A stretch of 64,000 nt of DNA, taken from positions 1,426,001 to 1,490,000 of the forward strand of contig JAKCFM010000001.1 in NCBI GenBank assembly GCA_025041195.1, in the 5' to 3' direction. Origin of the DNA: Halobacteriales archaeon YIM A00013. GTDB taxonomy: Archaea; Halobacteriota; Halobacteria; Halobacteriales; Haloarculaceae. Positions within the stretch are counted from its first letter, which is position 1. Every line of letters starts with the position of its first letter. The notes under the pieces are model-generated. The model was not told the origin of the DNA, did no database searches, and saw nothing but the letters and a program-made list of their open reading frames with translations. Position numbers and translations under genes: made by a program. This document shows, piece after piece, positions 36,065 to 37,394 of this stretch.

Positions 36065-36137
36065 GGGGCCGTGGGGTAGCCTGGTATCCTCTGCGCATGG
36101 GGTGCGTTGGACCTGAGTTCGAATCTCAGCGGTCCCA
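36065..36137 (+). tRNA. tRNA-Pro (anticodon GGG)
   Basis: 73 bases. The acceptor GGGGCCG pairs with CGGTCCC at 36130-36136 (one G-U pair), discriminator A. The D arm and T arm (CTGAG-TTCGAAT-CTCAG) are regular. The anticodon loop ATGGGGT puts U33 at 36098 and GGG at 36099-36101. The lower anticodon stem is imperfect. CCA not encoded, no intron. Confidence 0.9.
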
Positions 36138-36212
36138 CATTCTACACTTTCGATACGTCGAGAGCCATCTTACTCCAGAAGACAGTTACTCCGCTGATAG
36201 AAACTGACTGGC

Positions 36213-37394
36213 ATTCCTACTCGACGACAGGTGCTGGTCGGCGCCGGGACCACCTGCATCATGGGACTCGCTGGGTGTGGCACCCAGAGCACGGTGTCGT
36301 ATGCAGGCCGCGAAGATGCGACGACAGCATGGTGGCCACAGCCACAGTACGGCAGTTACGAGACGTGTTACAACCCAGAGACAACAGTGACCCCAGATGA
36401 ACCGAGCGTGCGCTGGGAAATAGAAATAGCAAGTCCAGCAGCACGACCAGTGGTGGTTGACGGAGTCGCTGTGTTGCCGACAGCCGATGGAGTACGAGCC
36501 CTTTCGGTGACAGATGGCACCGAACTGTGGAGAACAGGGGTGAACGGATCGTCGCAGTATCCGCAGTCCGTGACAACACACGATGGAGTGGTCTTTATCT
36601 CACGAGTTGAGTCACCCGAGATCATTGCAGTGGATCTCCACTCAGGAACCCAACAGTGGAAGCTGTCACTCGACCTGTTGCCAGTGGCACTCACGATCAG
36701 CAGACGTGGACCAGCCCTGTATGTTGGCTTCACCGACGGCCGTATCTACAAACTCAATCCCACAACTGGCGAAACAATCTGGAAGCAGGAGCTGTTCGGA
36801 GCAATTTCGACGCTCGTTGTAGCGGAATCCACGTGCCTGGTCGGTACTGAAGGCGGTGCTGTATACGCTCTCTCATCGCATGATGGACAGGGTATCTGGC
36901 GGCGGAAATTCCCAGGGATGATCTCTGCACTGGGATCACTGTGGGGGAGTAGTAACGGAGCAACGCACTTTGTCAGCTGCTTTGGCGGCCCAGTCTACGG
37001 GGTAGGGGAGATAACTGGTGCCACTGTCTGGCAATCGGACGATGTGTGGTCAGATGAGTCGCTCGTTATCACCAAGGATCGCCTGTTTGCGGCCGGTGAA
37101 TCACTCACCGCCATCAGTACGGACGGGGGGACGCAGAGCTGGACGGCCGGTACTACCACCCAGTGTGGGCCAGCTGGCGCTGGAGAGCTCGTGTTCGTGG
37201 CCACGGAAACCAGCATTGATGCGTACAAGATGGGTGGTGGGGCCGGGGTTGGCGGGATACGGTTCGGCCCAACACAGTGGAGCCAGCCCGTCGAAGGCAG
37301 ACCCGAGCAGGGAATTGCGATCGCCGACGGCGCTGTCTTCGTGATGACAATGGGTATAGATGGCGACCGGTCGATGGCCTACGCGATCGAGTAG
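36213..37394 (+). CDS. PQQ-like beta-propeller Tat lipoprotein (copy 1, probable ATT start)
   Basis: From the ATT at 36213 this encodes 393 residues, exactly the length of the tandem paralogue at 37452. The first codons then read I/M-PTRRQVLVGAG, matching MPTRRQLLAGLG of the paralogue, with the Tat motif and lipobox LAGC. The next possible normal start is a GTG at 36231, which would cut off the twin arginines. A stop at 36198 excludes an upstream ATG in frame. The body is a BamB-type propeller with repeated blade motifs such as AVDLHSGTQQW, KLNPTTGETIWK and TAISTDGGTQSW. Role of the exported propeller is unknown. Confidence 0.8.
   Translation: MPTRRQVLVGAGTTCIMGLAGCGTQSTVSYAGREDATTAWWPQPQYGSYETCYNPETTVTPDEPSVRWEIEIASPAARPVVVDGVAVLPTADGVRALSVTDGTELWRTGVNGSSQYPQSVTTHDGVVFISRVESPEIIAVDLHSGTQQWKLSLDLLPVALTISRRGPALYVGFTDGRIYKLNPTTGETIWKQELFGAISTLVVAESTCLVGTEGGAVYALSSHDGQGIWRRKFPGMISALGSLWGSSNGATHFVSCFGGPVYGVGEITGATVWQSDDVWSDESLVITKDRLFAAGESLTAISTDGGTQSWTAGTTTQCGPAGAGELVFVATETSIDAYKMGGGAGVGGIRFGPTQWSQPVEGRPEQGIAIADGAVFVMTMGIDGDRSMAYAIE

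Follow-up and report, generated by a model that had tools for sequence, protein, structure and literature searches.

How does translation of a Tat-lipoprotein gene begin when ATT stands where its start codon belongs? The gene, here called A, lies in a window of 64,000 nucleotides (the whole stretch of DNA that was analyzed, G000:C1:1426001-1490000) from a genome of 3.73 Mb in 3 contigs, and is followed by a tandem paralogue, B (Table 1). A haloarchaeal origin of the genome is suggested by its BRE/TATA promoters and Tat lipoproteins. Reading the letters directly, we found no ATG, GTG or TTG ahead of the GTG at 36231 in the frame 36201-37394 (plus strand). The 5' end reads TGA (36195), TAG (36198), AAA, CTG (36204), ACT, GGC, ATT (36213), CCT, ACT, CGA, CGA, CAG, GTG (36231), and the frame closes with the TAG ending at 37394, with zero internal stops. 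Counted from the ATT, it has 393 codons, the same number as B. An earlier note on this DNA had placed an ATT at 36213, with a stop at 36198 that blocks any upstream ATG and a GTG at 36231 that loses the Tat motif, and had counted 393 residues from the ATT, as in the paralogue, with PTRRQ kept; the letters bear out all of this. Its claim that the frame fits only from the ATT goes too far. It missed the in-frame CTG at 36204, though this codon is less likely as a start because it lies upstream of the predicted transcript start. ATT 36213 and CTG 36204, both near-cognate, are the only candidate start codons ahead of the twin arginine.

Table 1. Features of the gene A locus (positions in the window)
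Feature	Position	Strand	Basis or remark
tRNA-Pro (anticodon GGG), just upstream of gene A	36065..36138	+	ARAGORN
Promoter-like BRE/TATA element AGAAGACAGTTAC, 36 bases before ATT 36213	36177..36189	+	position weight matrix score 4.57
In-frame stop TAG, preceded by TGA 36195; closes the gene A frame upstream	36198..36200	+	sequence
CTG, second in-frame near-cognate codon between stop and ATT	36204..36206	+	sequence
ATT at the well-supported ancestral start position of gene A	36213..36215	+	alignment with relatives
Gene A, Tat-lipoprotein, PQQ/BamB-like beta-propeller repeats, 393 codons	36213..37394	+	Pfam PQQ_2, E 5.8e-22
Twin-arginine motif TRRQVL; lost if the start is GTG 36231 or later	36219..36236	+	sequence, alignment with B
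GTG, first canonical start in the gene A frame (residue 7); product without twin arginine	36231..36233	+	sequence
First in-frame ATG of gene A (residue 17), after the Tat motif; only MGLAGC left ahead of the mature part	36261..36263	+	sequence
Lipobox LAGC	36267..36278	+	sequence; 16 residues between second Arg and Cys
Gene B, tandem paralogue of A, ATG start, 393 residues	37452..38633	+	53% identical to A

The relatives of gene A show where its start belongs. In 33 of 44 an ATG stands exactly at the distance of the ATT from the twin arginine, and in 10 it stands 1 codon nearer or 3-5 codons farther, as assigned by a rule (the nearest ATG, GTG or TTG before the twin arginine) that is blind to non-canonical starts. 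A subset of 29 relatives, with six starts set by hand, has ATG in 29 of 29, exactly at the aligned codon in 21; among the 15 more distant relatives (12 assigned by the rule, L114 and L118 read by eye as ATG), ATG is found in 14 and is exactly aligned in 12. The subset of 29 includes L005, a paralogue from the own genome, and leaves out L048 (same place and N-terminus as L019), the weaker own-genome paralogues L006-L013 and the weaker or partial matches L024-L042, of which L024 and L030 were seen to start with ATG. The nearest relatives (B and the genes of G001, G006, G106 and G108) all start at the position of the ATT. L108, from another family, has no ATG near the twin arginine and only GTG codons 29-32 codons upstream of the arginines. 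A start at those codons would mean an unusually long n-region.

Genes A and B align end to end, and at codon 1 the sole difference between them is ATT versus ATG. Over codons 2-6 (PTRRQ), we counted 0, 0 and 3 changes at positions 1, 2 and 3, respectively; since these codons differ at third positions only, the segment must have been translated for a long time. The pattern ATT-CCN-WSN-CGN-CG occurs at 10 sites in the own genome. Only at gene A is it followed by a lipobox and a long frame (393 codons); frames at the remaining nine sites have 5-114 codons and no lipobox. The ATG version of the pattern gave 12 sites, with a lipobox and a long frame in B only. One of these 12, L141, has a Tat-like start and 217 codons, with no lipobox match. 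Judged from these patterns, the ATT-Tat-lipobox arrangement of gene A is not due to chance.

Upstream of the gene, we scored candidate promoters with a BRE/TATA matrix (consensus CGAAA....TTTA) made from 206 genes with an ATG common to this genome and the sister species G001. Sites were found for 114 of the 206 genes and peak at 37 bases before the ATG, which is consistent with many mRNAs being leaderless. The element of gene A is 27 bases from CTG 36204 and 54 from GTG 36231, and it aligns with an element that precedes the ATG of the G001 gene by 35-36 bases. Its score, reached by 10% of shuffled upstreams, is weak alone; the likelihood ratio against shuffled upstreams was 2.07 for the ATT, 0.59 for the CTG, 0.53 for GTG 36231 and 0.56 for ATG 36261. 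A decayed promoter was considered and rejected, the score being an ordinary one (65th percentile of real genes). Since the spacing to the ATT is the one usual for ATG starts here, we infer that the 5' end of the transcript lies near the ATT, downstream of the CTG. Taken together, the homologues, the third-position-only changes in PTRRQ, the pattern search in the own genome and the promoter spacing make it well supported that ATT 36213 occupies the ancestral start position of gene A.

Translated from the ATT or earlier, gene A carries the motif TRRQVL in its n-region; the twin arginines are described as essential for Tat export (PMC2945643). The spacing of its lipobox Cys (16 residues) falls inside the 12-21 residues given for haloarchaeal Tat lipoproteins, from the second Arg to the lipobox Cys, in the same source (PMC2945643). 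An AlphaFold model of gene A, computed from a two-row alignment, is poor (mean pLDDT 51.5) and consists mostly of strands. Two relatives, L109 and L118 (around position 1500), keep MPSRRQ and have no lipobox Cys in the stretch read; these proteins may be anchored by the signal segment instead.

In G001, the same tRNA-Pro stands in the same surrounding gene order and is followed by a single gene of this kind, and gene A is absent from the site. Sharing 83% identity with B and 52% with A, the G001 gene is B's orthologue. The tree groups B with the G001 gene and places A as sister to that pair (support 100/99), so the A/B split predates the species split. Gene A was probably lost in G001, a gain in this lineage being the alternative. 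It was found in none of the 6 further genomes searched within the genus. Wider searches took in 146 genomes of the family, 392 of the order and 391 of the class, sets that overlap and contain the own genome, with at most 12, 4 and 4 candidates scored per genome; no listed match outside the own genome lies above the 52% of G001.

That gene A is a mobile element inserted at the tRNA is unsupported, as no second copy of the tRNA 3' end occurs within the window. A protein search of the genome contigs yielded two matches, both weak and bacterial (2 of 15 candidate stretches), which were set aside. In a different genus, G013:C1:396752-399060 holds two adjacent matches of this lipoprotein family, perhaps another tandem pair. 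G006:C1 and G002:C1 have matches at identical coordinates (2566744-2567910) and with near-identical scores in supposedly different genomes; assembly G006 (9% contamination) may contain the G002 chromosome.

Gene A does not evolve faster than B. Relative-rate (Tajima) tests of A versus B with five outgroups gave p values of 0.49-0.91, and the tree path is 0.42 for A and 0.45 for B. At 202 columns that are invariant in three outgroups, both genes keep 137. Four relatives, among them B's own orthologue, share 132 invariant columns, of which 115 are retained in A and 129 in B; this comparison is biased towards B. No further decay of gene A was found in its internal stops, its end-to-end alignment with B or its rate. 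Given no rate excess and no internal stop, any inactivation of gene A would be recent. About 3.9% of random substitutions in the gene create a stop, and under neutral drift it would stay open with probability 0.10 at 0.05 changes per site, falling to 0.01 at 0.1. B and its G001 orthologue are 0.49 apart in synonymous distance, or about 0.245 for each lineage. On this scale, a loss of function in gene A, if any, probably occurred within about the last fifth of the time since the species split (at the 10% level, counting substitutions and ignoring indels). Among 229 genes, A ranks at the 5th percentile in codon adaptation and B at the 39th; the low value of A fits weak expression and may point to a gene whose low expression lets it get by with a weak start.

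We also surveyed 422 gene pairs for start losses. It yielded 23 mechanical candidates, 15 with the start lost in G001 and 8 with it lost in G000, and no clean background rate; by construction, every candidate has a canonical start at most 12 codons downstream, as does gene A (GTG, 6 codons on). Near 1370420 of G000:C1 (survey frame X+106419), G001 has ATG and this genome ATT at a possible upstream start, with an ATG five codons later, and this difference is probably harmless. A Tat lipoprotein on the minus strand (near 374065 in G000, near 385576 in G001) has an ATG two codons before the arginines in G000 and an isoleucine codon there in G001. Both copies have a second ATG 16 codons before the arginines.

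Can an AUU be read as a start in such a transcript? In the passages cited here, Babski et al. review AUG, GUG and UUG as all usable in archaeal mRNAs whatever the leader (PMC7531240). Chen et al. report that on a short-leader mRNA of Haloferax volcanii AUG is 5-37 times more efficient than GUG, with no detectable activity from UUG (PMC4574771), and in Haloarcula hispanica AUG is described as crucial without a strong SD, GUG or UUG being sufficient with one (PMC8501985). Across 36 prokaryote groups, an ancestral AUG is given as changed to AUU in 1 of 61,358 cases and an ancestral GUG in 1 of 5,080 (PMC5622118). Outside these three codons, AUU is an established start of infC and pcnB in E. coli (PMC1780047, PMC9410913), and PMC4574771 cites Srinivasan et al. 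(2006) for a GUC start in Halobacterium. Among the matches listed for literature on AUU, non-AUG and non-canonical archaeal starts, none was a natural AUU start in an archaeon. The GUC start in Halobacterium reportedly used an altered initiator tRNA. Given the weakness of GUG and UUG in haloarchaeal assays and the rarity of the AUG to AUU change, initiation on an AUU that opens a leaderless mRNA should, by analogy, be poor. The ATT start proposed in the earlier note thus stands as the ancestral start position, on the evidence of homologues, third-position-only changes and promoter spacing. As a site of ribosome initiation it is hypothetical, and judging from the haloarchaeal assays initiation there would be inefficient.

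The explanation we prefer, with a rough probability of 0.55, is a recent start loss that silenced or strongly weakened a redundant copy. In this view, position 36213 of gene A would once have held an ATG, read from a transcript with little leader, if any, to give a full-length, Tat-exported lipoprotein resembling B. The ATG would then have become ATT through a recent G-to-T change, and the body of the gene would be intact because the change is recent. If leaderless haloarchaeal mRNAs are as strongly AUG-dependent as the assays suggest, full-length exported A would be present at a very low level or absent, and the downstream starts (GTG 36231, ATG 36261) would yield a protein without the twin-arginine signal that stays intracellular. 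B would cover the function of gene A. The earlier note had named a lost start, with at most an unexported fragment, as its alternative, and we find that this fits better than initiation at the ATT. Against a start loss, the promoter score is ordinary and the frame undamaged, as expected were A still used; going by the review of Babski et al. (PMC7531240), leader and start rules may also be looser than one reporter suggests, the reporter codons in the cited passages on haloarchaea being AUG, GUG and UUG.

The same homologous position, kept Tat motif and lipobox, intact frame, lack of acceleration versus B and promoter at the right spacing would also be found if the ATT were a working start, the initiator tRNA starting on an AUU that lies at or close to the 5' terminus of a leaderless mRNA to give a low level of exported lipoprotein. 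AUU starts are, after all, established in E. coli (PMC1780047, PMC9410913). However, in a haloarchaeal short-leader mRNA GUG already costs a factor of 5-37 and UUG abolishes all detectable activity, and a very recent loss predicts the intact frame equally. Moreover, one sequence of the gene A lineage was found, so that the ATT is known from a single genome. We therefore regard a working ATT as unlikely, and view with equal doubt a living gene A whose leaderless mRNA, beginning with AUU, would limit the dose of one of two tandem lipoproteins. It is rather improbable that the ATT is an assembly error, or a variant private to the isolate in a species that has ATG. A single-base difference at one site in one genome would be compatible with this, as would the in-frame stops met in 61 of 422 G001 genes read in this genome, against 48 of 422 in the reverse direction, in a noisy survey. 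Yet apparent frameshifts are not in excess here (8 versus 10, of 422 each way, one gene being counted twice in the 8), and the ATT is a lone substitution outside any homopolymer run. This survey used stop-to-stop frames including untranslated upstream parts, and its counts say little.

A start at CTG 36204 on a leadered transcript would add three residues to the full-length protein. This near-cognate codon is in frame after the stop and keeps the Tat motif, and in two distant relatives, L117 and L121, the start likewise lies three codons farther away from the twin arginine; but all the nearest relatives start at the ATT position, the promoter ratio is 0.59 versus 2.07 for the ATT, and the CTG lies outside the predicted transcript, which makes its use very improbable. 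We give just as little credit to GTG 36231 or ATG 36261 as the true functional start of a protein that is cytoplasmic by design. GTG is a normal haloarchaeal start codon, the first canonical one in the frame, and may well serve as a fallback. Nevertheless, the upstream PTRRQ is conserved, its codons having changed at third positions only, and the lipobox is retained. A promoter at leaderless spacing is lacking for both codons (ratios 0.53 and 0.56), although a leadered start needs none there.

Start loss in itself is ordinary, and the case matters mainly if the AUU works. Its use in gene A would be noteworthy, as archaeal leaderless initiation would then tolerate a codon beyond AUG, GUG and UUG, and gene finders would trim the signal peptide off such genes. 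If the AUU fails, as under the start loss that we prefer, the A/B pair would catch a gene shortly after its start was lost, and automatic annotation from GTG 36231 would conceal the loss by reporting an ordinary cytoplasmic protein.

Compared with known systems, gene A resembles E. coli infC and pcnB in having ATT where the start codon belongs. Those genes are bacterial and their AUU starts are proven by experiment, whereas gene A is archaeal, has a predicted leaderless mRNA and is known from sequence alone. Like start-loss pseudogenes, it would owe its missing start to one base change, with an intact paralogue; unlike typical ones, its frame is complete, with no second lesion seen. Its TRRQVL motif, uncharged stretch, LAGC lipobox and Arg-Cys gap are those of haloarchaeal Tat lipoproteins (TatLipo class), from which it differs in having no canonical start ahead of the twin arginine. 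Both A and B resemble PQQ_2/BamB-like beta-propeller lipoproteins, as they match PQQ_2 (PF13360) above the curated cut-off (gene A 78.9 bits versus 27.6). Both fall below the equivalog cut-off of BamB (TIGR03300), gene A far under it with 78.5 versus 285.2 bits, and unlike BamB, gene A has a signal of the Tat type.
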